IMG/VR virus record: IMGVR_UViG_3300047546_000614
Span: 1 to 23,261 of that record
DNA length: 23,261 nucleotides
Reading direction: 5' to 3' (one strand)
Source: a virus
The notes beneath the pieces were generated by a model, which made no database searches, was not told the DNA's origin, and was given only the letters and a program-made list of their open reading frames with translations. Positions 4,597 to 22,060 of the stretch are shown here, piece by piece (position 1 is the stretch's first letter; the number at the start of each line of letters is the position of its first letter). The translations under genes and the position numbers were made by a program.

Positions 4597-5042
4597 TGAA
4601 CTGGTCTGATCCGACAACTGCAAGGGTGCAGCGCATTGCGAGAATGCTGCGATACCAGGACCGTCTGGAAGTGCTCTACAGCCACGGGATCACGGGGGAG
4701 GATGCAGTGCTCTCCAGCTGGCGCAACGCTGAAATCTGTCGTTGCATAGATGGAGATGACGGCGCAGCTGTGGGGATCTGTGGAGTCACGCGAGGGCGAA
4801 CGATCTGGCTGCTCGGCACCGATGAACTGCTGGCCACCGCCAGCCACCGCCGCCAGTTCCTGCGCGGCGCCCGCCGCTGGGTCGATGGCCTGATGGCTGA
4901 TCACCCGCTGCTGGAGAACTGGGCGCTCTGGAGCAACCGAGACACGCTGCGCTGGCTGGAGTGGCTCGGCTTCACGATCGACACCCCCCAGCCGATGGGC
5001 CGCAGCGCCCAGCTGTTCGCGCATTTCTGGAGGGCAGCCTGA
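4596..5042 (+). CDS. T7 gp13-like protein (DUF2833-type)
   Basis: A 148-residue protein at the gene 13 position, between gp12 and gp14. T7 gp13 has 138 residues and is needed for assembly of the virion core. Shared layout: an N-terminal segment about position or location (LEVLYSHGITGEDAVLSSW), a short glycine-rich beta segment (DGAAVGICGV) followed by TIWLLGTDELL (T7: CWFVTSDQVW), a helix RRQFLRGARRWVDGLM, then NWALWSNRDTLRWLEWLGF (T7: NYVWVGNTSHIRFLKTIGA). This resembles a small acetyltransferase-like fold, but no enzymatic activity is claimed. The ATG at 4596 overlaps the gp12 stop and the TGA at 5040-5042 overlaps the next ATG, so all three genes are probably translationally coupled. Confidence 0.8.
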   Translation: MNWSDPTTARVQRIARMLRYQDRLEVLYSHGITGEDAVLSSWRNAEICRCIDGDDGAAVGICGVTRGRTIWLLGTDELLATASHRRQFLRGARRWVDGLMADHPLLENWALWSNRDTLRWLEWLGFTIDTPQPMGRSAQLFAHFWRAA

Positions 5043-5899
5043 TGGTTGTCATCAATCCACTCAGCCTTTCAATCGCAACTGGCGCCGCGCAGGGCCTGCT
5101 CGGCGTGCTTGGAGCTGGCGCCGAGAACGCTGCCGCCAAGCAGGACTACGCCAACCGGACCGCATTCCAGAACGCGAACACGCAGTTTGCGCGGTGGCAG
5201 GCGGGCTTCAACGCGCGAGTGGCCGATGCCAATGCCCAGTACAACTACTGGCAGGAGACGGTCAACTACAACCAGAACCTGGCCTACACCCGCAGCCTGC
5301 GCAACTACGAAACGCTGCAGGCGATTGCCCAGGCGGATGTTGTCGGCCAGACCCGTGCGGCGGCCGGCGCCGCCTTCATGGGCGATAGCCAGGCGATCAG
5401 TCAGCAGGCCGCCGAAGCGTCAATGCGCGAAGCGGTGGCACTGCAGCAGTACCAGGTGGCAGCGCTCAAGGCCCGCAGTCGGGTCACGGCTGCAGGCCAG
5501 GAAGGCGCATCGATTGATCGGCTGATCAACGACTACGTGCGCCAGGTGGGCGACTACCAGGCGATTCAGGCGATCAACGAAGGATTCCGCACCCGCCAAT
5601 ACAGCCGCGAACAGGCGGCCCAGGTGGCGAACTATCTGAGTCGATACAACTCCCAGCAGTTCTATCAGGAGCGCCCCTACATGGAGCCGATTGCGCCATT
5701 CGCGCCCCTGCCGGCCCTGCTGCAGGCGCCCGAGCCAACCATGACAGGTTCCGGTCCGAGCGGCGGTGCTGCGGCCCTGCGGATCGGCTCGGCGCTGATG
5801 GGCGGCGTCAGCGCCGGCATCCAGACCTACTCGACCCTGAAGCCCCTGGCGGGCAGCAACCCGAAGCCGGCACCGACCCCGGCAGCGAAAGGTAGCTGA
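5042..5899 (+). CDS. Internal virion protein, T7 gp14-like
   Basis: A 285-residue protein in the gene 14 position. In T7, gp14 is part of the internal core and is ejected to form the outer-membrane channel. The start ATG at 5042 overlaps the gp13 stop and is preceded by GGAGGGCAGC. The N-terminus (PLSLSIATGAAQGLLGVLGAGAENA) is hydrophobic and glycine/alanine rich. Residues about 35-190 are Gln/Ala/Asn-rich helix with many aromatic residues (NAQYNYWQETVNYNQNL, LQAIAQADVVGQTRAA), as in other gp14-like proteins. The C-terminus is Pro/Gly/Ala rich. It is longer than T7 gp14 (196). Assignment rests on position, composition and general pattern rather than on a catalytic motif. Confidence 0.72.
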   Translation: MVVINPLSLSIATGAAQGLLGVLGAGAENAAAKQDYANRTAFQNANTQFARWQAGFNARVADANAQYNYWQETVNYNQNLAYTRSLRNYETLQAIAQADVVGQTRAAAGAAFMGDSQAISQQAAEASMREAVALQQYQVAALKARSRVTAAGQEGASIDRLINDYVRQVGDYQAIQAINEGFRTRQYSREQAAQVANYLSRYNSQQFYQERPYMEPIAPFAPLPALLQAPEPTMTGSGPSGGAAALRIGSALMGGVSAGIQTYSTLKPLAGSNPKPAPTPAAKGS

Positions 5900-5901
5900 C
5901 C

Positions 5902-8715
5902 ATGGCGCGAGAAGACCTCCCGCTCAACCAGATCGCACCGGCGGCCAGGCCTGTTGATGCCTTTGTGCAGCCGGCGGTGCAGCGCCCGGCGGCGCCGGCA
6001 GAGCTGAAGCTGATGCCGAACCCCAGTGGCATCCAGCTGATCGGCCAATCGTCTGGCGGCAGCGTTGAGGGCGTCAACCAACTGGCGGAACTGGCCGGGG
6101 CCCTGGCGCCATTCAGCAGGCAGCTGATGGAGCTTGCCGGAGGCGGAGTGAAGCTCTACGCCAGCTCCGAATACGAGAAGGGCCAGAACGAAGCCATGCG
6201 AGCAACCGTGCTCGCCAACCAGCAGATGCTGGCCACGGCCAGCGAATACGCCGCCGAGAACCGCCGTCTCGACAAGGTGGATCCGGTTGCGGCCCTGATG
6301 ATGGATCGGGTCAACCCGTTCCGCCAAGGGGGGCGCCAGAACGCGCTTACCCGCGTGGCGGGGAACGAGATCTTGCCGGCTGTGATGAAGGCCTACGGGT
6401 CGATTACAGGCGTGGCTGAGCTTGAGCTGGGGCATCCCTTGCTGAAGCAGACCGCCGCCCAGGCCATTCAGGGGGTCATGCAGCGCTACGGGATCGACGC
6501 CGGATCGCCCGGCTTCATCGAGAACGTCCTGCCGCAGATCAGCCAGGCGGAATCGAGGATCTTTGAGCGGCATGAGCAGGATCACGTCGGCCGCCTTAAG
6601 GACACTGCCTGGCGCGATGCAGCGCTGGAAGTGACCAGCATTTATGACAAAGCGAGAGAGAGCGGTGTCGTTGAGTGGACTGAGTTTGACCCCGTGACGG
6701 GGCAGGAGATCAGAAAAACGGCGAAGCTGGGCGAAGACCGTGCCAAGTGGGAGCGCGGGGTTCAGATTCTTGCTGGCCAAGTTGCGAAGCGTCTTGCGGA
6801 CGCCACTGGTATTACAGGAGAAACGACAGAGCTACAGGGCAGGATGTTCACGAGGCTTGCGCAAATGGCAGGCCACGCTGGCAATACCGAGCTCGCAAGG
6901 ATCCTGTATCGCACGCCAGTAGGACTGGCTGATAAAAACGGCAGAAGGCCGGCAGCTGGCGAATACTTCGGGATCGAAATGTATGAAGGCGCCTACGAGA
7001 TCGAACAGAAAAGGTGGCAGGACCGTCAACGCTCTATTGAGCGTGGTGTTGAAGACTTCAAGTCGGAGCTTGCGGTCGAAACTCAAGGACTGCCTGATGG
7101 CCCTGATCGCGGCGCTGCGATTGCGCGGCTGATCGAGAAGTATGTGGGCCTCAAGATTCCGCGATCGGAACTGGTTGAGGCTGCCGGCAGCATGAGCACC
7201 ACGCTCGACAGCGTGGCGGGGCGCAGCTTCGACTCGTCGCAGATGGACAGCCTGCTGCGCAGCTTCCAGGCCCGTGTCGGCGCGGAGTGGGATGCGACGG
7301 TGGCCGATCAAGAGTTCAATCGATTGCTCCCAACGGTGGCGCCGCAGGAGCGCGGGGCATTCAGCGAGCGCTACGCCGCCATTCGCCGCATCAAAGAGAA
7401 CGAGAAGAACGACATCCCGAGCAATCTGATCAACCCACTGATACACGCCAAGATCAAGAGCGGCCTGCGCTGGGCCTACCCCGACAACGTGACTGAAGCC
7501 TCGCTTCGCGGGGCTGACATCAGCGCAATGATGGCGTGGGGCGATGCCGACGTTGCCAAATCCGCGCAGCTGCAGCTCAGCGCCTACACCCGGCATGTTG
7601 TCGCCAGGCTGCGGGAGGCGGAATCGCGTAAGGGCGAAAAGCTCAACACCGATGAAATCCTCAGGATTACAACTGACGCCCTGGCGGAATACGGCACCAA
7701 GAACAAAGAGATGTTCAATGACCTGTTCCCCGGCTCCGCCCAGACCGACACGCCATCCGTTGGCGGCCGGGCGAGGCCACCCGCTACGACGCCGCGACCG
7801 GCTAGTGGGACGCCGCCCACCCCTGGCGGCCAGCGCCCGATGCCGGCGGTGTTCCCCTCCGGCCAGCTCGACAACATCCCAAACCGCAGCGAGCGCCTGA
7901 GAAACGGCGAGCCGGTGTTGGCGCTGCCCAGCCTGCAGGAAGAGATCGCCAGGATCTACAACGGTCAACGGCCGAGCGCTGCGGTGATTCGCGCCGCCCG
8001 TGATGCTGGCTTCGGCAGCAATGTGGGCAAATGGCTGCTGCGCGAGGCCGGCAACTACGACTCCTACGACCTGGATCCGCAGGTGCGGCAGAAGCTGTTG
8101 CGCAGCAGCAATGACGCCGCTGGCGTCGCTGGCGCCACTCAGGTGGCGGCGGCTCCCCCGTCGCCGGTCCAGCAGCTTGGCAGCTGGTGGCTGAACGTCT
8201 TGACCGGCGCGAGCCCCTCCTACGCCGGCACCCTTTCGTCCATGCGAGGAGGCGGCCGGAATGGCACAGGCCCTTTTTCGGATAGCCCGGTGGCAAGCAT
8301 CGGCGACATCAACATGACGAGATTGCGCACTGTGATTGTTGGCAAGGAGAGCGGCGGCAGCTTCTCCGCCGTCAACCCTGATTCCGGTGCGCTTGGCTAT
8401 GGCCAAGTGATGCCTTACAACGTGGGCCCATGGACCCAGGAGCACTATGGGCGCCGTCTGACGCCTGAGCAGTTCCTGGCCAGCCGAGAGGCCCAGCTGG
8501 CGGTTGTGAATGGTCAGCTGGCCAAGATCGTGCGCCAGCAGCAGGCCGCTGGCTATCGCGGCGATGTCGCAATCCGCCGCGCCGCCGCTATTTGGTACAG
8601 CGGCAACGGCAACCTTTACGACGACAACAGGCCGCAGTATTACAAAGGTCGACGATACCCGTCGATCCGCGAATACACGCTCGACATTCTCAATAGCTAC
8701 AAGCGAGGAGGCTGA
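5902..8715 (+). CDS. Internal virion protein, gp15-like, with C-terminal lytic transglycosylase domain
   Basis: A 937-residue virion core protein candidate. Residues about 1-600 are mainly helical, with repeated charged segments and a Gln/Ala-rich N-terminal part, fitting the gp15 role as a periplasmic tube protein in T7. Residues about 610-650 are a Pro/Thr/Gly linker. Residues about 800-937 form a soluble-lytic-transglycosylase (SLT) domain: catalytic Glu816 in GKESGG, then NPDSGALGYGQVMP at 825-838, and the distal AAAIWYSGNGN and YPSIREYTLDILNSY. This domain cuts peptidoglycan so the ejection tube can cross the wall. In T7 the equivalent domain is at the N-terminus of gp16, so its place here is shifted. 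The ATG at 5902 follows the gp14 stop by 2 bases. The gp15 label is by position; the SLT call is from sequence. Confidence 0.82.
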   Translation: MAREDLPLNQIAPAARPVDAFVQPAVQRPAAPAELKLMPNPSGIQLIGQSSGGSVEGVNQLAELAGALAPFSRQLMELAGGGVKLYASSEYEKGQNEAMRATVLANQQMLATASEYAAENRRLDKVDPVAALMMDRVNPFRQGGRQNALTRVAGNEILPAVMKAYGSITGVAELELGHPLLKQTAAQAIQGVMQRYGIDAGSPGFIENVLPQISQAESRIFERHEQDHVGRLKDTAWRDAALEVTSIYDKARESGVVEWTEFDPVTGQEIRKTAKLGEDRAKWERGVQILAGQVAKRLADATGITGETTELQGRMFTRLAQMAGHAGNTELARILYRTPVGLADKNGRRPAAGEYFGIEMYEGAYEIEQKRWQDRQRSIERGVEDFKSELAVETQGLPDGPDRGAAIARLIEKYVGLKIPRSELVEAAGSMSTTLDSVAGRSFDSSQMDSLLRSFQARVGAEWDATVADQEFNRLLPTVAPQERGAFSERYAAIRRIKENEKNDIPSNLINPLIHAKIKSGLRWAYPDNVTEASLRGADISAMMAWGDADVAKSAQLQLSAYTRHVVARLREAESRKGEKLNTDEILRITTDALAEYGTKNKEMFNDLFPGSAQTDTPSVGGRARPPATTPRPASGTPPTPGGQRPMPAVFPSGQLDNIPNRSERLRNGEPVLALPSLQEEIARIYNGQRPSAAVIRAARDAGFGSNVGKWLLREAGNYDSYDLDPQVRQKLLRSSNDAAGVAGATQVAAAPPSPVQQLGSWWLNVLTGASPSYAGTLSSMRGGGRNGTGPFSDSPVASIGDINMTRLRTVIVGKESGGSFSAVNPDSGALGYGQVMPYNVGPWTQEHYGRRLTPEQFLASREAQLAVVNGQLAKIVRQQQAAGYRGDVAIRRAAAIWYSGNGNLYDDNRPQYYKGRRYPSIREYTLDILNSYKRGG

Positions 8716-8719
8716 ACCA

Positions 8720-11700
8720 GTGCCACAGCAACACAAAATCGTGAATGGCAAGCTGGTGCTGGTCGGCGCCCAGCGCAGTAGCGACCTGGTTCCGCGCCAG
8801 TCGCAACGGCCCGCCCAGCGCTCCCCACGCCAGCCGCAGCCGAAGCCGTGGTGGCAGCAGGTGTTGAACCATGTCGTCTACGAGCTGCGAGGGCGCCCCG
8901 GCACTGCGCTGATGCCGCAGACACCCGTGACGATCACGCCGCCGGCCAGACCCAGCGGGAGACCGCAGGTGCGCGTGAATCTGCCCGTGGCGGCGGCCCA
9001 GACCATTGCGGCGCCTGTGCTCTACGGCCCCCAGCGACAGATCGCGATTGGCGCCGTTGGCGCTACCGACAACGCTCTCAGGGCCGGCTACTCCTGGCTC
9101 CAGAGGGCACAAGGGAAGCCCAGCGCGGATCCCTCCTCTGGCTGGTTCGGATCAGCCCTTGATGGGTACGTCGACTTCGCGTATCAGGCGCTGGGCGCCA
9201 CCCCGCCGTCGCGGATGACGCAGGCCGAAATCCAGGGCGACCAGAACCTCCGCTCCGGCGTCATGAATGCCGCGCTGATGGCCGTCCCCGGCATGGGCGG
9301 TCTTGGCGCGGCAACCGCCAAGACGTGGGTGGGTGGCGCGTTGCGCGCCGGCACGTCCTTTGCGCTGAACGAGGCGGCCAGCAACTTCCTCGACAACAAG
9401 ACCGGCGGCAACATCGTCAACACGATCAACGACACCTTCAAGCTGAAGCTGCCCGGCGCAGTTCAGGTTGGCGTTGACGACATCCCGGACGCAGCGCTGA
9501 AGTCATTCGGCCCGGACGCCGCTGCATCGGCCGTATTCGGCGTTGCGCTGAGCACAGGGGTGCGACTTGGCGTCGCCGGCTACCGCAACTTCCAGAACAT
9601 CCTCCGCAACATCAGGGCGCAGCGCGGTGTCGCCGCCGAGCAGGCCGAACGCGCCAGGCAGGAGGCAATGGGCCTTCTGCAGAAGGACGACGACGGCGCA
9701 CTGGACTTCACCGATCAGGCACGACAGCCCCCAGAGCCACCGGCGCCTGTTGCTCCACCCGCCCCGCCCCGCACACCGGCAGAGGAAGGGCTTGATGCCG
9801 TCCGCGCCATGGAGGAGCGCCTGGGCGGGCAGTCGGCCGCTGAGACCGCACCGGCGCCGCCCGATACCGCGCCAACGCCCGAGCCCGCTCCCGCACGCCC
9901 CGCACCAACCACTGAGTTCCAGGACCCGACGCAACCAGGCGCCGACATGGGCGCCGTCGCCGAGGACCTGCAAGATCGCCCCTGGGATTACGACCCCTCC
10001 CTGCCCGAGAGCACGGCGCTGGGCAAGGCCGTCGGCGAACTCAGCGACGCCGAGCTGCAGGCCGTCATCAGCAATCCAGGTATCCCGGTTGTCGATCGCG
10101 TCAACCAGACGATCGAGGCACGCGGCGCCGTTGATCCAGGCCCGGCGATCGACTCCCAGATGGTGATGGCCCCCGCCGGCCGCCTGGCGGAGGACTACAT
10201 CGCCGGGCTGATGCGGACGCTTGGCGGCATGGAGCGCCAACTGCGTCAGCTGTTCGACTCCCCGGCCAATGCCGGCCTATGGCGCCGCGCCCAGGCGCTC
10301 ACCGGCGTGGAGGACATCGCACAGTTGAGCAAGGCGGACATGCTCGACACCATCAAGGCGATGGCGGCCGAGGGCCAGGTGCCGATCACCAATCGGCTGA
10401 TGGGCGCCCAGATGATGCCAACCGGCGAGATCACGCCAGCGCCGCAGGTGTTCCAGTACAAGGGCGGCGTCAACGAGGCCGGCGAACAGCTCGGCAACTC
10501 GCTGGAGGGACTGGAGCGCTGGGATCCAAAGGCTGAGGGCATCATCCAGGTCTGGCGCGATGTGAACGGCGAGATCGGCGAGCCGGGCAAGGTCTATGTC
10601 GTCAACGGCCACAACCGCCTGGCTGCCGCCAACCGGATGGGCATTCCATCAATGCGGGTGGAGTTCCTGGATGCCCCCACGGCGGCTGAGGCCAGGCTGC
10701 AAGGCGCCGTCGCCAACGTCAGCGATGGCAAAGGCACGGTGTTCGACGCCGCCAAGGTGGCGCGTGAGCTGGGCATCACCACGACTGCCGATCTGAAGAA
10801 ACTCGGCAAACCTCAGGCCAGCGGGTTCTGGCGTGACGGCATCGCCTTGAGCCGGCTGCCTGAGGACGTGTTCCAGGGCGCGGTCAATGCCCCGGAGGCG
10901 CTGCGCCCGATGTATCGGCTGATCGGGGAATCAGGCGCCAGCCCCGAAATCATGCGCAGCGCCCACATCCATCTCACCAAGGACCCGAAGACGTCCGCCG
11001 CCGAGTTGGTCGAAATGATCGACTGGGCCAAGGCGCAGCGGAACACCGACGCGGCGAAGGCAAGCCAGGAGCAGGGCCGGCTTCCATTCGAGGACTGGGA
11101 TGCGACTTTTGACGAGCGAATGCTGGCGATGCAGCGTCTCGCGTCAGAGGTTGACACCTTGCTCGGCAAGGAAAAGCGGTTGTTTCGCGGCGCCAGGAAG
11201 AACGCCGATGCGCTGAACACCGTTGGCACCCTTGACGCTCAAGCCGCAGGGGAAATCGGTGATGGCGCCGCCCGCGCACAGGTGATCTTCAAGGACACCA
11301 AGTACGTGACCGGCCCCGTCAACGATCTGCTGAAGGAAGGCGTTGAGCGGATCCTGGCCGGCGAAACCCCAGAGCAAGTGGCCCAGGGCATCAAGAACCG
11401 CCTGGCCGCCGCCATTCAGGAGGCGATGGGCAAGGAGGCGGCGCCAGCCGTCGACGTGGTTCAGGAGGACATGTTCGCCGCTGGCGGCCGGCAGGAGCTT
11501 GGCTCGGCCGCTGAACCCGCAGCACCCCAGCCGATCGAGCTCACCGATGAGCAACGCCTCGCTGCTGAAGCGCAGCTGCTGAACGAGGCGATTGCCGGCG
11601 GCGAGGTGCGTCCGCCGAATGCACCGATCCCCAAGCTGCCGGATCCGCCGCAGGTGCGGCTGGATGAACTGGACCTGGATGCCCCCGTCACACCCGGCAG

Positions 11701-13996
11701 CAAGACGGCGCAGGCGATGGCCGACGAGGCCCGCCTGGCGGTGGAACACGCCCGCATGGATGCCGCCATGGCGGAGATGCAGGAGAAGGCAGCCAAGGAC
11801 GCCATGGACTACGAGCTGCTCACCTTCGAGGAGAAGAAAGAGCTGGGGATGACGGCAGCGCTGGATGAAGCCATCACCCCCGAGGTGCTGCCGCCGGGTG
11901 GGATGCCGGGCGAGAGGCGGACGCCAATAGCCGACGCGCTTGGCGAAAGCCTGCGGGCGCTGGCCGAATCCGATGCCCGCATGTTCCGAGAGATCGGCGG
12001 ACTCCTGGGCGACATGAGACGGGTCGCCGACGAGATGGCCGGCGGGGGCGGCGGGGGACCGGCCAACCCCGCCGGCAGGCAAGCCCTGCCCGAAGCTCCG
12101 GCAACAACGCCACCCGTCGAGATCCCCGCCGCCGCCGGCCGCAAGATCACGGCCAGGACCAGCGAGGGTCGCATCAGAGGAGCTGCCGAGGCCCTTGCCA
12201 GCTGGACAAAGGCTCCAGGCAAGGACGCGATGCCGATTGAAAAGGCGCTGGACCTGGTGCGAGCCAAGGGGGCAATCCTTGACCCTGATGCCATCCCTGG
12301 CCTGAACGCTGATGCCGCCAGGAGCGAGCGGGGGATGGGCATGAGCACTCCCACCACAGAGGCCGTCGCCGCCGCCTACCGGCAGTTCTACGGGATGCCC
12401 GAGCCGGCGCCCAGGGCCACAGCGCCAACCCTGGCGCCAGCGCCGGTGATGCCAAGGCCGTTGCGGGTGGTGCAACCGGCGGCGCAGCCCGAACTGCTAT
12501 TGCCGCAGGATCTGCAGAGATCAACGCCCCGCTACGGGCGCAGCACGATCGCGTTCCAGTCTGATCTGGATCGCGCCGCCTATGTGCTCGCCAACGATGC
12601 GGTGAAGCCGAGCAAGGCGGCCGACAAGTTCCGTCAGGTGGTCAAGGAAGCTGGCCTCGACATCGCCGAGGTGGTGGCGCACGGCAAGCGGGTGAAGACG
12701 GCTCTCAAGGCCGCTGGCGCCGGCAACCAGGGCGAGATCCAGTTGCCTCCGCAGCCGTGGCGCGGGGGAGGGCCGATCATCAGCCCAAGCCTGGCCGACG
12801 ACTTGAACGACCCTGCCAAGGCCCGCTTGCTCCGCGAGCTGTTTGATTCCTATGCGTATTTGACGACCCCGCAACGGAAGGAACAGATCGCCCGCCTGCT
12901 GGGCAACAAGAAAGCGGAGGGCGTCTGGACGCTGGGCGATGAGGGCGCCGCAAACCAGCTGGAGCGCGACATCCTTGGATTCGTCCTTCGCATGACCGGC
13001 ACCCGCGACGTCGACATCGACATCGCCGATTCCATCCTGGTGCGCAGCGATGGCGACGGCTACGGGCGGGCGGGAGCACCAGAAGTGGATCCAGTCAACG
13101 GTGTGTCCGTCGACCCGCTCTACGATGACAGAGACGCGATCATCCTGCTCGCTCGCTACGGCGAGTACCTGCAGAAGAAGCTCCCACAGGAACTTGCGGA
13201 AGTAGCCGTACATGAGGCGATCCACTTCTTGCAGCTGCGTAAGCTCACCCACGACCAACTGGAGATCCTTACACGTGACGACGCAATCGCCTGGTACAGA
13301 TCCGAAGCAGCCAAAAGTGGATGGAGAGGCAGCGACGGAACCCCCGGAGGAGACCTCAAAAACATCGAACTCATGGCATGGGGGACTCAACGCTGGCTGG
13401 CGGCAGGGCTCCTTCGTGACATGGCAGCCCTTTACAGGCACCGAGGGAAGGGGGAAGCCGCTGCACTCATCGACGAGCTGCGAGAAAGCTCCCTGGCCGA
13501 GTATTCTCCGCCTCCTACTCGACTTCAGGAAGCGCTTAAACCGCTGATCCCTGTTTGGGAAAGGATCAAGAACTATCTGCTTGGCGTTGGCTTCAAGCTG
13601 AACTCGGAGTTGACTGATCAGCAGATCGATGCGCTCGCTGGGCTCACCGGCGATCTGATGGGCGCCGGCCGCACGCGTATCGCCAAGGCGATTGACCCGA
13701 GGCCGGACCCCAATGAGCCGCCTCAAGCGGTCAAAGAAATCCTGGAAGCCGCATACACCGGTCAGATCGCCAAGCAGATGTACCTGAAGCCTGGCCGGAT
13801 GGGGCCGGCCGCATTGGCGAAATACGACCGCCGGTGGCAGCAGCTTGGCGTGTCGTGGGGCGCCAATGGCAATCCCCAGCGAGCCGCTGCCCCGCCACCC
13901 ACCAAGGCTGACATCACCCGCACGCAACAGCAGATTGACGCCATCGACCAACAGATGGCCGAGATCCGCGCCAAAGCCGCACAGGAGGGCTGCTGA
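8720..13996 (+). CDS. Giant polyvalent-type virion protein with ParB/DdrB-like and HExxH metallopeptidase domains
   Basis: A 1,758-residue multidomain protein, probably packaged and ejected. The start is GTG at 8720, 8 bases after AGGAGG (8706-8711) and 4 bases after the gp15 stop; the longer open frame only rereads the SLT domain. Residues about 90-300 contain alanine/glycine-rich hydrophobic helices (GVMNAALMAVPGMGGLGAATA, AVFGVALSTGVRLGVAG) that could touch membrane. Pro-rich linkers lie near 336-352 and 373-405. Residues about 520-720 look ParB/DdrB-like: VYVVNGHNRLAAANRMG with Asn629-Gly-His-Asn-Arg633, followed by EARLQGAVANVSDGKGTVFDAAKVARELG. More Pro/Ala-rich spacers follow near 1120-1275. 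The C-terminal part has VAVHEAIHFLQL with HExxH at 1498-1502 and a possible third zinc ligand Glu1550 in NIELMAW. Such combinations are known in phage polyvalent proteins thought to act on the host early in infection. The function here is inferred; T7 has no counterpart. Confidence 0.75.
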   Translation: MPQQHKIVNGKLVLVGAQRSSDLVPRQSQRPAQRSPRQPQPKPWWQQVLNHVVYELRGRPGTALMPQTPVTITPPARPSGRPQVRVNLPVAAAQTIAAPVLYGPQRQIAIGAVGATDNALRAGYSWLQRAQGKPSADPSSGWFGSALDGYVDFAYQALGATPPSRMTQAEIQGDQNLRSGVMNAALMAVPGMGGLGAATAKTWVGGALRAGTSFALNEAASNFLDNKTGGNIVNTINDTFKLKLPGAVQVGVDDIPDAALKSFGPDAAASAVFGVALSTGVRLGVAGYRNFQNILRNIRAQRGVAAEQAERARQEAMGLLQKDDDGALDFTDQARQPPEPPAPVAPPAPPRTPAEEGLDAVRAMEERLGGQSAAETAPAPPDTAPTPEPAPARPAPTTEFQDPTQPGADMGAVAEDLQDRPWDYDPSLPESTALGKAVGELSDAELQAVISNPGIPVVDRVNQTIEARGAVDPGPAIDSQMVMAPAGRLAEDYIAGLMRTLGGMERQLRQLFDSPANAGLWRRAQALTGVEDIAQLSKADMLDTIKAMAAEGQVPITNRLMGAQMMPTGEITPAPQVFQYKGGVNEAGEQLGNSLEGLERWDPKAEGIIQVWRDVNGEIGEPGKVYVVNGHNRLAAANRMGIPSMRVEFLDAPTAAEARLQGAVANVSDGKGTVFDAAKVARELGITTTADLKKLGKPQASGFWRDGIALSRLPEDVFQGAVNAPEALRPMYRLIGESGASPEIMRSAHIHLTKDPKTSAAELVEMIDWAKAQRNTDAAKASQEQGRLPFEDWDATFDERMLAMQRLASEVDTLLGKEKRLFRGARKNADALNTVGTLDAQAAGEIGDGAARAQVIFKDTKYVTGPVNDLLKEGVERILAGETPEQVAQGIKNRLAAAIQEAMGKEAAPAVDVVQEDMFAAGGRQELGSAAEPAAPQPIELTDEQRLAAEAQLLNEAIAGGEVRPPNAPIPKLPDPPQVRLDELDLDAPVTPGSKTAQAMADEARLAVEHARMDAAMAEMQEKAAKDAMDYELLTFEEKKELGMTAALDEAITPEVLPPGGMPGERRTPIADALGESLRALAESDARMFREIGGLLGDMRRVADEMAGGGGGGPANPAGRQALPEAPATTPPVEIPAAAGRKITARTSEGRIRGAAEALASWTKAPGKDAMPIEKALDLVRAKGAILDPDAIPGLNADAARSERGMGMSTPTTEAVAAAYRQFYGMPEPAPRATAPTLAPAPVMPRPLRVVQPAAQPELLLPQDLQRSTPRYGRSTIAFQSDLDRAAYVLANDAVKPSKAADKFRQVVKEAGLDIAEVVAHGKRVKTALKAAGAGNQGEIQLPPQPWRGGGPIISPSLADDLNDPAKARLLRELFDSYAYLTTPQRKEQIARLLGNKKAEGVWTLGDEGAANQLERDILGFVLRMTGTRDVDIDIADSILVRSDGDGYGRAGAPEVDPVNGVSVDPLYDDRDAIILLARYGEYLQKKLPQELAEVAVHEAIHFLQLRKLTHDQLEILTRDDAIAWYRSEAAKSGWRGSDGTPGGDLKNIELMAWGTQRWLAAGLLRDMAALYRHRGKGEAAALIDELRESSLAEYSPPPTRLQEALKPLIPVWERIKNYLLGVGFKLNSELTDQQIDALAGLTGDLMGAGRTRIAKAIDPRPDPNEPPQAVKEILEAAYTGQIAKQMYLKPGRMGPAALAKYDRRWQQLGVSWGANGNPQRAAAPPPTKADITRTQQQIDAIDQQMAEIRAKAAQEGC

Positions 13997-13998
13997 CC

Positions 13999-16900
13999 AT
14001 GACCGCCAACAACTGCGACGACACCTTCCAGCAGCTCCAGCGCCTTCAGGAGCAGAAGCAGGCCCTGCAGCAACAGCTGGAGGAGAAGGATCGCCTGCTC
14101 AGGGCAGCCGGCGTCTACCAGCCATCGGCCGCCGGCAACGGCATCATCCTGCGCGATCTCAGTGGCGCACCGGTTGAGCTTGATCCCGCCGAGATCCAGC
14201 GCGGCTATACCCAGCTGGTGGGCACCATGAACTCGCGGGAGGTGGATGAGCTCGTCGCCCGCGGCCTGGAACAGTTCGCCAGGCCCGTTGGCAGCGAAGG
14301 CCGCTTCCAGAACTACGACCGGCTGATCAAAGAGGTCGACGTCAGCACCCGGGAGGACTACGCCCGCTTCGCGGAAGCGCTGGGGCTCATCCACCGACGC
14401 ATCGCCCCCGAGGACCACGCCTTCATCACCCGCACCTACGGCAAGGACAAGCTGATCGAACTGGTCAGCGGCTACTACCGCAACCTCGGCGCCAGCGATC
14501 CCGAGATCCTGGCCCAGGCCGCGGCCAAGTCGGCGCCGATGATGAATGCGGTCGAGAACAAGCTCTGGCTGCGGTTCTGGGCAGATCGCAGCAAGCGCCT
14601 CTACCTCGATTCGGTGGAGGAGATGCAGGCCGCCATGCGCGAGATCCCTGGCTCCAAGCCGCCGCCGGAAATGCAACAGGAAGCGTTCAGGCGTTTCCGC
14701 CTGGCGCTGCTGCTGGAGCGGCACAACAACCTGGTGACGCGCCGCCATGCCCAGGCGCTGCGCAGTCAGCAGGAGAACATCCTGGACCTGCAGCAGTTCC
14801 GCCTTGATCTCGGCGACGAGAGCTACTACTTCGAGCCCGGCAAGGGCATCGACGACGCCATTGGCATGACCGGCAAGGATGTCGCGCCCGATGAGCACTT
14901 CGGCCGTGTTGTTGAAGCCATCGACAACGGCGACGCCACTCAGCTTGGCGTCTTGATCGACACCGCCAAGATCGATGGCCTGGATCCCAAGTCCCGCCTC
15001 GACAAGGACTGGTTCAACACGCACATGCGGATGGCCACGGCGCTGGTCAAGGATTCGCAGCTGAGCAATCTCAACTCCAACTACCTCAACGTTGGCAGCA
15101 ATGGCATCATGATGCTCTATGGGCCGCTGCAGCAGACCTTCTACAACGGGTCCATGCTCACGCCCCTGGGCACAAGGACGCTGCGCAATCGCCTGATTGA
15201 TGGCAGCACGTCGCTACTGGAGGCGATGCGGATCAGTGGCGAGGCGCATAACTTCGCCATGACGGCCCTGAAGGCCACGTGGAAATCCGATCTGCAGCGG
15301 GTCTTCCAAACTGGCGTCAGCCACTACAGCGGCAACCTCGACACCTACGGCAAGCGTCTGCTCACCAATCAGCAGGAGCTGCAGGACATGCAGGCGATCC
15401 TCGACATGCCGTACCGGCCTGGCGCCAACTGGTTCACCCAGCTGGGTAACCCGCACAACGTCGGCATCTTCACCAACAAGCTGCAGGCCGCGGCCCGCAT
15501 CCTGGTGCTCACCAAGCCGAATGGCGCCTTCCACACCGGCATGAATCGCGGCCAGGCGGCCATCGCCGCGCTGGGCTTCGGCAAGAACGGTGGCGTGCAA
15601 CGGATCAGCGCCCGTGACATCGACATGTACCTGCCCTGGAAGCCGGCGCTGCGGGCCATGGCTGGCGTCGATGAGGTGTTCGGCCGCTACCACTACCTGT
15701 TCAAGCTGAAGGCCGATCTGGAGGTCAAGGCGCGGATGGAAGGCGCCCAGCTGGGCCTGCTGGATGACCGCAGCCGTGCGGAGTGGGTGCAACGCCAGAT
15801 CGATGAAGCGGTCTACCAGGCCACGCCCAGCGAGAGCGACATCAAGGCGTTCCGCAAGCAGCACGGCCTGAAGGGCAGCGACTTCACCGATGACGAGATC
15901 GGCGCGCTGATCAGCGAGAGCAATCTGGCTGGGGCGCCCACGCTGTCATCGCCGGAGTCGATTGAGGCCTTGCGCCACTCGGCCGAGATGCGCTTCCAGG
16001 ACCCACCAACCGGCAACCCGGGCGAGCTGGTCGACACCGCAATGATGGGCCTCCGCCGCAACTGGATGGTCGATCGCTACGTCATGCCCTACTGGCGCTC
16101 CCTGTTCGCCGGAACGCTGCTGGACTGGCGCCTGTCGACGTTTGGCATCGTCGACACCGTGAAAATGCTGAATGCTGGTGGCTTCGACAAGGCGCCGCCG
16201 GAACTGGTCGCCAGGGTCAAGGCCAGCTGGACCATGAGCGGCGCCCTGCTGGCGGCCTTCGGTGCGCTCGATGCCGCCGGCCAGGTGGGCGGTGGCGCCG
16301 ACCCGGACCCTGATCGCCGCAACACCATCTTCGGCATGAAGCTGGGCGGCTTCCCGGTGGTGAACACGCTGCTGCTGTGGAAGGACATCAAGGACACGGC
16401 TGCAGCGGCCAACACCAACGACTACGACGGCACCGAACTGCTGTCGTCGATCATGAAACTGCTGACGGCGCAGATCACGCGAACGGCTGGCGTGCAGCAA
16501 ATCCAGCTGCTGCTGGAGGCCCTGATGGACGGCAACCGCAGCAGCATGGAGCGCCTGCAGACCATGGCCGGCTTCATCGGCTCCGGCCAGATCCCATTCA
16601 TCGGCACGATCCGCAATGTCGAACGTGCGGTCGGCATGGACCGCAACAGCTACTACCGCGATGAGCCCAGCACCGCAGCGCAGCGGTACGAGCTGGGCCA
16701 GGATCACCCGCTGAAGCTGCTGGAGCAATCCCTGCGCAGCTGGCTGATCGACACCATGCCGATCGCTGCGGGGCTTGCCGGCGCACGCCGCAAGGAGACC
16801 GATCACCTCGGCACGCCGCGGGGACACATCAATGGCATCAACCTGTCCAAGGCGTTCCCGATGTTCTTCCCGTCCGTCTGGCCCAAGGGCAAGACGAATC

Positions 16901-17541
16901 AGGTGGTCTACGCCGAGCTCGACGCGCAGAACATGCTTGATCCACCGCGAGCGCTGCTCAGCCGCGTCCTGGAAGGCGTGTCGATGTCGGACGATCTGCA
17001 GTTCGAGTACAACGACATCCACGGCACGATCAAGGCCGACCCGCGTTATCCGCTGATGGTCAGGCTCGGGTTGTCCGGCAAGGCCACGGTGACAACCAGG
17101 CCGCAGACCTTTGAGGCGGTGACGCCGACGGGCCAGCGCATCAAGGAAACGGATTCCAGCGGCAAGATTGAGTACGGCCCCCTTCTGAATCGCGTCACCC
17201 GCGGTCGCACCAAGAAGGACGCGCTCTATGCCCTGTTCACCAGCCGCGAATACCAGCAGCTGGAGGACGACCCGGTGACATCCGCACACCCGCCCGGCGG
17301 CCTGCCACGGGCTCAGCAGCGCACCAGGGCGGCACAGGTACTGATCCAGCGCATCACCGACTACTACGACCTGCTCACCCAGGACGAGCTTGAGCGTCGC
17401 GCTGCCGCCGGCACCAGCGCTGCCGCCAAGGAGTGGAGCGCAGCCAAGACGGCCATCACGCAGCGCAGGAACGAACGCAACCTCACCGAGCTGCAACGTG
17501 CCAACCAGATCTTGAGCGGCTCGCCAGCTCCGGCACAATGA
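13999..17541 (+). CDS. Large internal virion protein, gp16-like (no transglycosylase domain)
   Basis: A 1,180-residue protein directly before the tail fibre gene, the gene 16 position. T7 gp16 (1,318 residues) is ejected and forms the inner-membrane part of the DNA translocation channel. Visible here: an N-terminal coiled coil (about residues 8-37, FQQLQRLQEQKQALQQQLEEK), a long helical body with conserved-looking aromatic segments (WFNTHMRMATALVKD, NLNSNYLNVGSNGIMMLYGPLQQ), and a hydrophobic stretch near 740-760 (WTMSGALLAAFGALDAAGQVGG). It is followed by DPDRRNTIFGMKLGGFPVVNTLLLWKDI, a pattern I associate with the C-terminal domains of large polyvalent or N4-type virion proteins. There is no SLT motif. 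ATG at 13999 has GGAGG 10 bases upstream and follows the previous stop by 2 bases. The gp16 role is inferred from position and size. Confidence 0.68.
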   Translation: MTANNCDDTFQQLQRLQEQKQALQQQLEEKDRLLRAAGVYQPSAAGNGIILRDLSGAPVELDPAEIQRGYTQLVGTMNSREVDELVARGLEQFARPVGSEGRFQNYDRLIKEVDVSTREDYARFAEALGLIHRRIAPEDHAFITRTYGKDKLIELVSGYYRNLGASDPEILAQAAAKSAPMMNAVENKLWLRFWADRSKRLYLDSVEEMQAAMREIPGSKPPPEMQQEAFRRFRLALLLERHNNLVTRRHAQALRSQQENILDLQQFRLDLGDESYYFEPGKGIDDAIGMTGKDVAPDEHFGRVVEAIDNGDATQLGVLIDTAKIDGLDPKSRLDKDWFNTHMRMATALVKDSQLSNLNSNYLNVGSNGIMMLYGPLQQTFYNGSMLTPLGTRTLRNRLIDGSTSLLEAMRISGEAHNFAMTALKATWKSDLQRVFQTGVSHYSGNLDTYGKRLLTNQQELQDMQAILDMPYRPGANWFTQLGNPHNVGIFTNKLQAAARILVLTKPNGAFHTGMNRGQAAIAALGFGKNGGVQRISARDIDMYLPWKPALRAMAGVDEVFGRYHYLFKLKADLEVKARMEGAQLGLLDDRSRAEWVQRQIDEAVYQATPSESDIKAFRKQHGLKGSDFTDDEIGALISESNLAGAPTLSSPESIEALRHSAEMRFQDPPTGNPGELVDTAMMGLRRNWMVDRYVMPYWRSLFAGTLLDWRLSTFGIVDTVKMLNAGGFDKAPPELVARVKASWTMSGALLAAFGALDAAGQVGGGADPDPDRRNTIFGMKLGGFPVVNTLLLWKDIKDTAAAANTNDYDGTELLSSIMKLLTAQITRTAGVQQIQLLLEALMDGNRSSMERLQTMAGFIGSGQIPFIGTIRNVERAVGMDRNSYYRDEPSTAAQRYELGQDHPLKLLEQSLRSWLIDTMPIAAGLAGARRKETDHLGTPRGHINGINLSKAFPMFFPSVWPKGKTNQVVYAELDAQNMLDPPRALLSRVLEGVSMSDDLQFEYNDIHGTIKADPRYPLMVRLGLSGKATVTTRPQTFEAVTPTGQRIKETDSSGKIEYGPLLNRVTRGRTKKDALYALFTSREYQQLEDDPVTSAHPPGGLPRAQQRTRAAQVLIQRITDYYDLLTQDELERRAAAGTSAAAKEWSAAKTAITQRRNERNLTELQRANQILSGSPAPAQ

Positions 17542-17565: not shown

Positions 17566-19152
17566 GTGCCCTACTCCTATGTCCAGTACACCGGCACCGG
17601 CACAGCGCCACTGCTGTCGGTGCCGTTCCCGTATCTGTTGAAGGCGCATGTGCGCCTCTACACGGGCTATGACCTGCTGACCGATACCTGGACCGCTGAG
17701 CTGACCGATGGCGCTGGGTTCACGTGGACCAGCGCCACGCAGGTGCAGCTGAGCGGCAACCTGGCCAATGGCGTGGTGCTGACGATCATCCGCAAGACGC
17801 CGACCAATGCGCGGCTGGTGGATTGGAACGATGCCAGCAACCTGCTGGCCGGCGACATGGACACCGCCGACCTGCAGAACCTGTATGCGGTGCAGGAGCA
17901 GCAGGACCGTGTGGTTCAAGCAGCTGCCGTGGCTGATGCGGCCAATGAAGCGATCAGCGACGTGCTGGTTTATGCGCCGATCGCCAATGTCGCGTCGATC
18001 CCCGGCAGCCCGACCAACGGCGACCGGATCGAGCTGACCGACTCCACCGGCATCGAGACCTTCTCGCCGCTCTCTGGCCGCCCCGCTGGTTTTGTCGGCA
18101 GCAGCCAGCTGCGGGTGCGGATGTACTGGAACAGCGCCAGCAATACCTGGATCTGGGGGTCGTATTACACGGTGGATCCAGACGGCCGCTATGTGCGGCA
18201 GAGCTCGATCAGCAACAGCGTCACCAGCACATCACAGGCAACGGTTGCAAGCTCCGCGGCCGTGAAGACCGCCAAGGACGCGGCGGATACGGCAGCAACG
18301 GCAGCGGCAGCTGCCCAGGCGGCGGCGGCATCCGCTGCATCAGCGGCAACTACAGCGCAGACCACGGCCAATGGCAAGCTCACAGATAGCTGCGCCACGG
18401 ATCGCGTGCTGGGCCGCAGCTCAGCCGGCACCGGCCCCGTTGAGCAGATCACGCTGACTGCCGCTGGCCGCGCCCTGCTGGATGACGTGGACGCAGCTGC
18501 ACAGCGGACAACGTTGGGCCTCTCAACGGTCGCCGCCACAGGCTCCTACGCAGACCTCACCGGCAAGCCAACGATTCCATCAATCGCCGCCAGGTCCGAC
18601 ATCAACGGCGTTCATACAACCGGCTCGATCACCAGCGGCACCGCCAGCCTGACGGTCGCCAGCGCCACCGGCATCGTTGCTGGCATGGTGGTGACCGGCG
18701 AAGGCATCACGCCCGGCACCACCGTAAGCAGCATCAACGGCACGTCCGTAACGCTCAGCGCCAATGCAGGCAGCACGCTCAGTTCGGATCCGGTCGGCTT
18801 TTACGACAACGCAAAGGCACTCAGCCCCGGCAGTGTTGGCGGGCAACTGTGCCGCGCCTGGGTCAACTTCGACGGCACCGGCGCCGTGGCGATCCGCGCC
18901 AGCTACAACGTCAGCTCGATCACTGACAACGGCGTGGGTGACTATACGGTGAACTTCACGACGGCAATGGCGGATGCGAATTATTCAGCTGTGATTACTG
19001 CCCAAGAGACTAGTGCTGGCGGGCGCGATGGTTTCCTATCAATTCGAGGAGGCACTTCACCATCAACTAGCGCGATCAGATTTTCCGGTGGCGTAAATAA
19101 TGCTTATTTTGCAGCTGATAATTCAATCGTCTGTGTCGCCATCTTCCGCTGA
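17566..19152 (+). CDS. Tail fibre protein with T7 gp17-type N-terminal domain
   Basis: The receptor-binding fibre, 528 residues, starting at GTG 17566. Residues 1-120 match the T7 gp17 attachment domain: SVPFPYLLKAHVRLY, VVLTIIRKTPTNARLVDWNDASNLLAGDMDTADLQNLYAVQE (T7: RRVTSTTDRLVDFTDGSILRAYDLN). Residues about 133-210 form a beta-rich segment ending in WIWGSYYTVDPDGRYV, a block I recall from cyanophage fibres. Residues about 215-270 are an Ala-rich probable trimeric coiled coil. Residues 351-413 are a TGSI...GEGITPGTTV beta-module related to the one in the capsid. Residues 429-528 (CRAWVNFDGTGAVAIRASYNVSSI onward) form a C-terminal knob probably contacting the host. Bases 18961-19140, encoding the tip, are about 49% GC by hand count, well below neighbouring DNA, suggesting exchange of the tip. 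Confidence 0.92.
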   Translation: MPYSYVQYTGTGTAPLLSVPFPYLLKAHVRLYTGYDLLTDTWTAELTDGAGFTWTSATQVQLSGNLANGVVLTIIRKTPTNARLVDWNDASNLLAGDMDTADLQNLYAVQEQQDRVVQAAAVADAANEAISDVLVYAPIANVASIPGSPTNGDRIELTDSTGIETFSPLSGRPAGFVGSSQLRVRMYWNSASNTWIWGSYYTVDPDGRYVRQSSISNSVTSTSQATVASSAAVKTAKDAADTAATAAAAAQAAAASAASAATTAQTTANGKLTDSCATDRVLGRSSAGTGPVEQITLTAAGRALLDDVDAAAQRTTLGLSTVAATGSYADLTGKPTIPSIAARSDINGVHTTGSITSGTASLTVASATGIVAGMVVTGEGITPGTTVSSINGTSVTLSANAGSTLSSDPVGFYDNAKALSPGSVGGQLCRAWVNFDGTGAVAIRASYNVSSITDNGVGDYTVNFTTAMADANYSAVITAQETSAGGRDGFLSIRGGTSPSTSAIRFSGGVNNAYFAADNSIVCVAIFR

Positions 19153-20007: not shown

Positions 20008-20304
20008 ATGGCCGACCTCGCCAAACAGCTCGAAGACCTCCACGCTGCCGTCGTCGAAACCGTCAAGACCCGCATCGAAAACGGCGGCACCCGCGACGAC
20101 GACGGCAACCTCCTCGAACCCCTCAGCAACGACGACCTCCGCGTCGCCCTGCAGCTGCTGAAGCAGAACCAGATCAGCGCCGCTGCCATGCCAAGCACCC
20201 CAACGGCAGACCTGGCGCGAATGGCCGGCAAGCTGAACTTCCAGACCCTGGAAGCAAAGGCCAAGGTTGTGCCCATCCGCGCAGACGACAAGCTCAGCGC
20301 CTGA
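20008..20304 (+). CDS. Small terminase subunit, T7 gp18-like
   Basis: A 98-residue protein (T7 gp18, DNA maturase A, has 89) that recognises concatemer DNA for packaging. The sequence reads LHAAVVETVKTRIENGG, then LSNDDLRVALQLLKQNQISAAAMP, a helical arrangement common in podovirus small terminases (a helix ending in ...R..NGE... followed by ...A...LK.N.I). It sits after the membrane proteins just as gene 18 follows 17.5 in T7. The start ATG 20008 has GGTGA upstream. Its last 11 bases overlap the 3' end of the large terminase gene, which runs on the other strand, so the two mRNAs are complementary there. Confidence 0.78.
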   Translation: MADLAKQLEDLHAAVVETVKTRIENGGTRDDDGNLLEPLSNDDLRVALQLLKQNQISAAAMPSTPTADLARMAGKLNFQTLEAKAKVVPIRADDKLSA

Positions 20305-22060
20305 CGCCCCCGTAGGCCACGCCACGAGGCCGCGGCGTCCAGCCAAGCGCCAAAGCATCAATACTGGCGCCGGTCTCGTCAAACCACGCCTTCAGGTTGG
20401 CCTCGTCGATCTCGTCTTGGCGAACCTGACGCGCCACCTTCTGGTCCTGCGCGGCGGCATCCACAAACCAGCCGACGCCAAGCGACAAGGCATCAATCCG
20501 GTCGTCAAACTGCAGCGCCCCACGCTCGGTCGTGATTCGGCTGAGCTGGTACATCAACGAGCGGGCATGGCCGCTGTCAGGATCGCGCTCAGCGCCGGCC
20601 CAGTCCTGTTGGATCACCTCTTGATTCACGACCAGGCGGTGCTGCTGCACCACTGGCGCCAGCACGTCGACGATCCGCCGTTCCTTCTGCCCTGACACGC
20701 GCTTTTCCTCGATTGAGCAGGGATGAACCGCCTTCACAACGGGTTGCAGCAAGGCGGTGAACATGCCATCGCCCAGGTTGGATTCCGCCACGATGGTGTT
20801 CACCTTCCACCGCAGCGCCTTCTGCGCCAGTAGCTGCAGAACCTCTGGCTCGTACCCCCTGGTCGTGCCACCGGCCTCCAGCAGGAACAGGTTGCCATTG
20901 AGCTCTGCAATCACCGCCCAGGCCAGCTCATCGCTGCCGCGGCCGGATGGATCCACCGCCAGGATGCACCGCCAGGTTTCCTTCTGCGGCACCCACCCCT
21001 GCACCAGCGCCGGGCCGTAATAGGTGCGGTCGCTGCCGAGCCCCACGCATGGCAGGCTCTGCAGGCGGTGTTCATTGGCCGAAGACCACCCCACTACATC
21101 GGGCAGCGCCTTGCCGTCCAGCGGCATCACGATCAGATCGCCCAGCCGGATCGGGTAGCGATCAAGCGTCGATAGGCGGCAGTTCAGCATCAGCTGCAGC
21201 TGCACGCCGGCTCGCGTCGTCCGCATTTCCCGGCTGCGCAGTTCCTGCTCGCCAAAACGCTCCGGGTCGGTCGGCTTGCCGGCCAGGCTCGGATCGGCTT
21301 CAACCTCTGCTGCGATCAGTGGATCCAGCCCGCCCTCGTAGCACTCCCACTGATCCGGGTCTGCCGGGTTGGGGTATCGCGCCGGCCAGTACCGGATCGC
21401 GTAGTTCCGCTCACGTACCAGCCGCAGATAGAGCGATGTCTCCAGGTGCGGTGTGCCGAGGAACATGATCATCCGCGGCAGATCCTGGCCTTCATCCGGC
21501 TTGAGGATCATTTCGAGCTCGGTCACGGCCTGCGCCAGGCGCTCCTGCTTGAGCGGTGTGATCGAGTTGTTCAGCGTCTCGATGTCGTCTGGAATGGCGC
21601 AGGTGCAGCGCTTGCCGGTCAACGCAGGCGACAGGATGCCAACCGCCCGCACCGATGGGCTCTGATCAACGATCGCAGGCCCCACGTCAAAGGCCTTGGT
21701 TGAGCTCCGGCCATCGGCCCGCGGCTCCAGGCACCGCAGGATGTCGATGTCGCGGATGCAGCGCTGCATGAAGGTCGTAACCTCCACCGCCTTCTCCAAC
21801 GTGCTGCCAGGGATCAGCACCTTTTCGTTGAACGGATCGATCCGCAGCCGATGCAACGCCCGGAAGGCGGCCATGGTGCTCTTGGCCACACCACGAAACC
21901 CCACCGTGATCTGACGGTTCGGGCCGTTCTCCATCCAGTCGCAGATGCCCAGCTGCTGCTTGGTGGGCTCATCCGCCAGGTTCAGCTCCCGCAGCAGATA
22001 GCAGACGAAGTACGGGAACCGCCCAGGGCCAATCTCAGGCGGGATCGGCGTCCAGCTCAC
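20294..22060 (-). CDS. Large terminase subunit (packaging ATPase and nuclease), T7 gp19-like
   Basis: The DNA packaging motor, 588 residues (T7 gp19 has 586). Walker A is GFRGVAKST at residues 54-62 (T7: AFRGIGKSF) and Walker B is CAIPDDIE at 154-161. Next come LGTPHLETSLY near 201 and the RNase H-like nuclease with Asp370 in LAVDPSGRGSDE, Glu426 in IVAESNLGDG and the FDDRIDALS motif at 518-526. The start GTG at 22060 is the first that keeps the conserved N-terminus (FPYFVCYLLRELNL), with a GAGG-type site on the minus strand about 7-13 bases upstream, inside a hairpin. The gene lies on the strand opposite to all structural genes and converges on the small terminase; in T7 both terminase genes are co-directional. 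Confidence 0.95.
   Translation of the reverse strand: MSWTPIPPEIGPGRFPYFVCYLLRELNLADEPTKQQLGICDWMENGPNRQITVGFRGVAKSTMAAFRALHRLRIDPFNEKVLIPGSTLEKAVEVTTFMQRCIRDIDILRCLEPRADGRSSTKAFDVGPAIVDQSPSVRAVGILSPALTGKRCTCAIPDDIETLNNSITPLKQERLAQAVTELEMILKPDEGQDLPRMIMFLGTPHLETSLYLRLVRERNYAIRYWPARYPNPADPDQWECYEGGLDPLIAAEVEADPSLAGKPTDPERFGEQELRSREMRTTRAGVQLQLMLNCRLSTLDRYPIRLGDLIVMPLDGKALPDVVGWSSANEHRLQSLPCVGLGSDRTYYGPALVQGWVPQKETWRCILAVDPSGRGSDELAWAVIAELNGNLFLLEAGGTTRGYEPEVLQLLAQKALRWKVNTIVAESNLGDGMFTALLQPVVKAVHPCSIEEKRVSGQKERRIVDVLAPVVQQHRLVVNQEVIQQDWAGAERDPDSGHARSLMYQLSRITTERGALQFDDRIDALSLGVGWFVDAAAQDQKVARQVRQDEIDEANLKAWFDETGASIDALALGWTPRPRGVAYGGVRR

Follow-up and report, generated by a model that had tools for sequence, protein, structure and literature searches.

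The giant protein encoded between the gp15-like and gp16-like genes of a T7-like phage, hereafter POLY, carries a C-terminal module that is exchanged between phages that are otherwise nearly identical, and we consider it reasonably probable (about 60%) that POLY is a polyvalent protein which is packaged in the virion, ejected from it and equipped with an effector end that can be exchanged. The window referred to throughout is the whole stretch of viral DNA that was analysed (23,261 nucleotides; IMG/VR record IMGVR_UViG_3300047546_000614). Phage polyvalent proteins with ParB, zincin and ADP-ribosyltransferase (ART) domains are already known (Iyer et al., 2017; PMC5512222). What is new here is the exchange of the C-terminal module between near-identical phages, for which no earlier report was found in the open-access literature, a search that does not prove absence.

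The gene order of the window is T7-like and comprises the major head protein, gp11-like and gp12-like genes, a small gene at the gp13 position, gp14-like and gp15-like genes, POLY, the gp16-like gene and the tail fibre, which places POLY amid the late/virion genes of a portal–terminase phage. An earlier note on this DNA had described a giant open reading frame of about 1,758 residues separated from its neighbours by 4 and 2 bases, and both descriptions were correct, as the gp15-like gene ends at 8715 and the gp16-like gene starts at 13999. The cassette and its surroundings contain the following features:

4961..5899, plus strand: gp14-like gene, true start probably near 5036 (sequence, locus comparison)
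5902..8715, plus strand: gp15-like gene, 937 aa, with a C-terminal peptidoglycan-hydrolase-like domain (phrog_24990; weak RpfB match, E 0.013)
8705..8711, plus strand: Shine-Dalgarno sequence of POLY, GAGGAGG, within the last codons of the gp15-like gene (from sequence)
8720..13996, plus strand: POLY, giant modular protein, 1758 aa, GTG start (open reading frame, same-slot homologues, codon comparison)
13983..13988, plus strand: Shine-Dalgarno sequence of the gp16-like gene, AGGAGG, within the POLY tail (from sequence)
13999..17541, plus strand: gp16-like gene, 1180 aa (P-SSP7 gp16 profile; S-SRP02 p047 by tblastn)
17566..19152, plus strand: tail fibre, its C-terminal part swapped between sisters too (PHROGs; sister comparison)
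20294-22060, minus strand: probable large terminase subunit (own sequence and place in relatives)

Comparison of POLY with its homologue in the sister phage L001 over 540 codons gave 29 synonymous against 7 nonsynonymous differences, indicating that POLY is a selected gene. Profile comparison related the gp14-like protein to P-SSP7 ORF33 (E 9e-4) and the gp16-like family to P-SSP7 gp16 (E 3e-6, probability 88%), and p047 of the freshwater Synechococcus phage S-SRP02 matched the gp16-like gene in tblastn (E 5e-6). By the same profile comparison, the gp15-like protein matched no P-SSP7 or T7 ejection protein, and none of the gp14-like, gp15-like and gp16-like proteins showed detectable homology to T7 itself; a PDB sequence search with the gp16 profile returned nothing useful. 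A T7-type RNA polymerase is present in nine of ten related records of 26–44 kb. Similar to the ejection cassettes (gp14, gp15, gp16) of T7 and P-SSP7 in gene order and neighbours, the window differs from both in having a gene between 15 and 16 and in carrying its hydrolase-like domain on gp15. The label cyanophage used in the earlier note is not established, since the nearest relative in the genome collection is a contig in a Sphingomonadaceae metagenome-assembled genome (MAG). This phage contig (L094:8615-13612), whose ParB region is 70% identical, was binned in that MAG, which hints weakly at an alphaproteobacterial host.

Homologues of POLY were identified in Nohivirus S31C1, in 17 P-SCSP1 phages of Prochlorococcus and in 274 stretches of viral contigs, with the best 80 taken forward as loci; nearly all relatives are metagenomic assemblies, and since the ParB region was the bait for retrieving the loci, all of them contain ParB by design. 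Almost every locus with sufficient flanking sequence keeps the order gp12–gp14–gp15–POLY–gp16–fibre, and comparison of the gp15–gp16 interval in relatives, as the earlier note had proposed, found a POLY homologue conserved in this slot across the lineage. The same-slot homologue of Nohivirus S31C1 (BAQ94395; UniProt A0A6S4PA15), for which no study was found, is 31% identical in alignment and already bears the name 'large polyvalent protein associated domain-containing protein', but is shorter than POLY and has a different zincin subtype. In P-SCSP1-type genomes, one gene of 2.5–2.8 kaa replaces both POLY and gp16, with the fibre directly next to it; the homologue in P-SCSP1u, PSCSP1u_00023, has 2563 aa. 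POLY and gp16 thus appear to be fused in this type, the match of the protein end to gp16 being suggestive only (E 0.04). The gene 21 product of Prochlorococcus phage P-SCSP1a (2571 aa) has the ParB-helical unit followed by the HExxH domain, as in POLY, and differs by an additional ART-like domain (module scan) and by a long C-terminal part where gp16 would be; g20 and g21 had been guessed to be internal virion proteins on the basis of size and position only (Cai et al.; PMC9860041).

The slot is also occupied in S-SRP02, whose gp14, gp15 and gp16 are members of the same families. Its slot gene p046 (L089:35809-38859) is annotated as chromosome segregation ATPase-like and is actually a POLY-family slot protein, in which the scaffold motif was recognised at 97.6% probability (E 3e-12) and whose tail is similar. 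Neither a ParB unit nor a recognised enzyme was found in p046, and therefore even the ParB unit looks dispensable.

Within POLY the following parts were delimited:

8720..9979, plus strand: N-terminal region, about residues 1–420, moderately conserved, with a Pro-rich linker at its end
10409..10804, plus strand: ParB-fold domain, about residues 564–695, with NGHNR at 629–633 (conservation; AlphaFold2, Foldseek)
10805..11434, plus strand: helical domain after the ParB fold, about residues 696–905, its first part like the DNA-binding helix-turn-helix domain of ParB
11537..11854, plus strand: scaffold motif GEVRPPxxPIPxLP ... TFEEKKELG, about residues 940–1045 (conserved in POLY homologues; also in S-SRP02 p046)
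12122..12406, plus strand: YRQFYG module, residues 1135–1229 (module scan)
12530..12709, plus strand: SDLDRAAY module, residues 1271–1330 (module scan)
12770..13888, plus strand: swapped segment, with no blastn similarity to L001 and flanking DNA about 95% identical on both sides
12785..13759, plus strand: zincin-like module, type B, residues 1356–1680 (module scan, alignment, structure model)
13211..13225, plus strand: HEAIH motif, residues 1498–1502 (invariant columns, 36 sequences)
13367-13369, plus strand: E1550, candidate third ligand (invariant column, 36 sequences)
13889..13993, plus strand: conserved C-terminal tail TKADITRTQQQIDAIDQQMAEIRAKAAQEGC, identical in L001

The proteins of the window and L001 are 99% (gp12), 95% (gp14), 94% (gp15) and 97% (gp16) identical without any replaced stretch; replacement is confined to POLY residues ~1344–1739, which hold the zincin module, and to the end of the tail fibre. 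The GC content is 61.5% in the module versus 68% in the POLY core. The zincin module of the window is about 20–32% identical to the module of L001, whereas its identity over the searched segment is 54% with L016 and 44% with L061, a distant phage. Comparable exchanges were found elsewhere: in L065/L063, the last ~530 residues of POLY are replaced while gp12–gp16 are 96–99% identical; in L012/L013, two stretches of POLY are replaced at 98–99% identity; and the pattern returns in L049/L073 and other pairs. The control pair L043/L065 shares its module and is about 80% identical throughout. Six of nine sister clusters contain two to five C-terminal types (zincins, ART-like domains, unknown modules or none), counts that depend on the thresholds used and that leave aside apparent gp12 or gp16 swap stretches from contig ends or truncated reading frames. 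That the POLY end changes between near-identical phages from one zincin to a different one, to an ART-like domain or to no module at all speaks for a host-facing role of this end, like that of a fibre tip.

The C-terminal domain of gp15 is a second swap site of the ejection cassette. In L034/L035, L049/L073 and L046/L036, the last ~190 residues of the gp15-like protein (the peptidoglycan-hydrolase-like domain) are replaced as well, which agrees with the mosaicism reported for ejection proteins (PMC8954989). Because this domain is swapped too, the main rival reading is a structural one, according to which POLY would be an extra tunnel or core protein of the ejectosome whose variable end fits the channel to different envelopes. 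The slot within the ejection cassette, the members without an effector domain and the composition of S-SRP02 p046 would agree with such a role, and the modules not mapped to a family may indeed be structural. However, ART-like and ParB folds have no obvious function at an envelope, and T7 and P-SSP7 dispense with the gene altogether, which leads us to regard a purely structural POLY as unlikely.

The C-terminal HExxH domain claimed in the earlier note was confirmed at motif level, with H1498, E1499, H1502, E1550 and a glycine invariant among 36 homologues that are 15–54% identical to the window. Its zincin fold is less firmly indicated. The structure model of the module (pLDDT 74) has zincin-bearing top matches in the PDB that are weak (E 0.04, probability 0.57; 3e11 at probability 0.28), and its one clear match among viral models is the Nohivirus homologue. 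No match for POLY was obtained in Pfam (PF18763 and PF18818 included), with MPTase-PolyVal or in NCBIfam, and a PDB sequence search with the zincin profile gave nothing useful. A single POLY chain accordingly unites two different domains of effector type, namely a ParB fold and an HExxH...E module that is weakly supported as a zincin.

The module scan of relatives identified several zincin subtypes and three ART-like types at the C-terminus. The best of the latter, ART1, contains H-G-T, G-x-G-x-Y and a C-terminal E and matches PARP10 (PDB, E 6e-4) and, under the cut-off of the model, Pfam PARP (E 3e-5); the other two have sub-threshold matches to ART-PolyVal only. Five further modules have no family, namely YRQFYG, which varies in presence between relatives and has no Pfam match, SDLDRAAY, MSPRQK, a helical 79-aa unit and GITEQQW. 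The MSPRQK-like module (L049:11549-11902, L050:11378-11728, L064:11375-11725, L040:11687-11986) lies before or after the scaffold region, in two places in the protein (L049, L050).

These inventories bear on the possibility that POLY is a self-processing polyprotein, in which the zincin would cut POLY at head maturation or after entry to free the ParB part and would thus be a maturase rather than an effector. The zincin is C-terminal, behind Pro-rich linkers, and is the commonest module in the scan, and self-processing has been proposed for the zincins of polyvalent proteins, P1 DdrB among them (PMC5512222). Yet 18 of 60 complete homologues, 11 of which also lack an ART-like domain, have no zincin while keeping the core and tail, so the zincin is not an obligate self-processing enzyme; L035, L041, L047 and L073 have an ART-like module only, and the complete homologues L036 and L055 carry no recognisable effector. 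If the maturase were required, an unrelated domain in its place in sisters that are almost identical would hardly be expected. Self-processing is therefore improbable as a general account of POLY, and could still be true in those members that have the zincin.

The ParB part was aligned over POLY residues 558–967 with 64 homologues (65 sequences), in which NGHNR at 629–633 is almost invariant. Its AlphaFold2 model (pLDDT 82) matched Noc, KorB and ParB across both the ParB fold and the helix-turn-helix domain in Foldseek (7ol9, E 4e-4; 8qa9, E 6e-4; probability 1.0), with modest TM-scores of 0.17–0.32 by query length, and an HMM comparison with Myxococcus ParB gave E 0.02. The segment read as ParB/DdrB-like in the earlier note is thus ParB by fold, and its DdrB part was rejected, with PF18763 unmatched and the P1 DdrB profile comparison at 6% probability; the ParB fold, the HExxH domain and the placement in a T7-like ejection cassette otherwise stand from that reading. 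ParB CTPases have a GxxR box and a catalytic Glu in an ENxxR box. GHNR is present in 63 of the 65 aligned sequences, and 60 have A, S, T, Q or N immediately before the invariant N666, the catalytic Glu being mostly replaced. Nucleotide binding by the POLY ParB unit is possible from these motifs, and CTP hydrolysis is doubtful.

About 330 residues of the ParB-helical unit recur in smaller proteins of Nostoc, Pseudanabaena, Leptolyngbyaceae and other genomes (L095–L101). The unit is also found at about positions 1013–1329 of phrog_21, a family labelled portal protein that matches window residues 565–718; an assignment of POLY as a portal protein was rejected, since the match is limited to this unit, which means either that there are portal fusions or that the label covers too wide a family. 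The bacterial proteins, which occur beyond such cassettes, would suit a POLY that is not packaged at all and acts as a late cytoplasmic protein sharing the operon, for example in DNA packaging or the exclusion of other phages. This is quite improbable given that POLY keeps strictly to its place between gp15 and gp16, that it appears fused with gp16 in P-SCSP1-type genomes and that a portal-labelled PHROG contains the ParB-helical unit. Although the close sisters are all metagenomic assemblies, an origin of the swaps as assembly chimeras of coexisting phages is very improbable, because the frames remain open, the tail resumes in frame, the module type of the window recurs in L009/L016 and L061, and swaps occur in six clusters from different samples.

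A packaged and ejected polyvalent protein remains the reading we prefer. Packaging and ejection are suggested by the position of POLY, its translational coupling, the apparent gp16 fusion and the precedents of P1 DdrB, which is packaged after processing, and the N4 virion RNA polymerase (PMC5512222). The constant parts, comprising the N-terminal region, usually the ParB-fold and helix-turn-helix unit, the GEVRPP–EEKK scaffold and the short tail, would place POLY in the head beside the ejection proteins gp14, gp15 and gp16 and take it into the cell, probably attached to the incoming DNA, which the ParB unit may hold. Between scaffold and tail would lie an exchangeable cargo bay, occupied here by a putative zincin-like metallopeptidase and in sisters by another zincin, an ART-like domain or an uncharacterised module, or left empty. 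The cargo would most likely hit a host protein or defence component early in infection, and is not essential, given that L036 and L055 have none that is recognisable. No packaging signal was recognised in the constant N-terminal region, which counts against the packaged-effector reading. The hydrophobic N-terminal helices of the earlier note came down to a single segment (267–287) exceeding 1.3 on the Kyte-Doolittle scale.

POLY resembles known phage polyvalent proteins in its giant size, its several effector-type domains, its ParB-superfamily and zincin domains, with ART domains in relatives, and its setting among late virion genes. It differs in having a ParB unit that is ParB/Noc/KorB-like rather than DdrB-like, in lying between the gp15-like and gp16-like genes of its T7-like phage, and in the C-terminal variability of its family between near-identical phages; Iyer et al. 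described the polyvalent proteins they recovered as departing in organisation from other large conflict proteins such as polymorphic toxins, whose variability is mostly C-terminal (PMC5512222). With polymorphic toxins the POLY family shares a constant front and exchangeable C-terminal enzyme domains, zincin and ART types included. Unlike in these toxins, no immunity gene follows POLY, the gp16-like gene starting 2 bases on (close or overlapping in relatives), and delivery would be through the virion instead of a secretion system. More tentatively, and at somewhat less than even odds, the ejectosome of this widespread T7-like lineage may contain a protein dedicated to cargo, with a bay renewed by recombination. 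Such a protein would be the virion-carried equivalent of polymorphic toxins, its effector end changing about as readily as the receptor-binding tail fibre, presumably because of host defences encountered as infection begins.

Polyvalent proteins have been proposed to be packaged, injected weapons, an idea that has been little tested, and the conserved slot together with cultured Prochlorococcus phages makes it directly testable. Catalytic-module exchange between phages otherwise 94–99% identical argues for host-driven diversifying pressure, as on fibre tips, and the swapped modules, several without a known family, offer a collection of candidate enzymes directed against the host or its defences. 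Internal virion proteins are among the under-recruiting genes in marine viromes, for a reason called obscure (Mizuno et al., 2014; PMC3909814), and module exchange offers an explanation for this variability.

Two minor observations concern the remaining sequence. A role in the protein for the cysteine of the C-terminal EGC/GGC was considered and set aside, because the Shine-Dalgarno sequence of the gp16-like gene, which lies within this end, explains it for the most part. The major head protein (window 1-1071) has an insert at residues about 94–176 that matches phrog_21413, and the tail fibre (17566-19152) contains a stretch resembling this insert.
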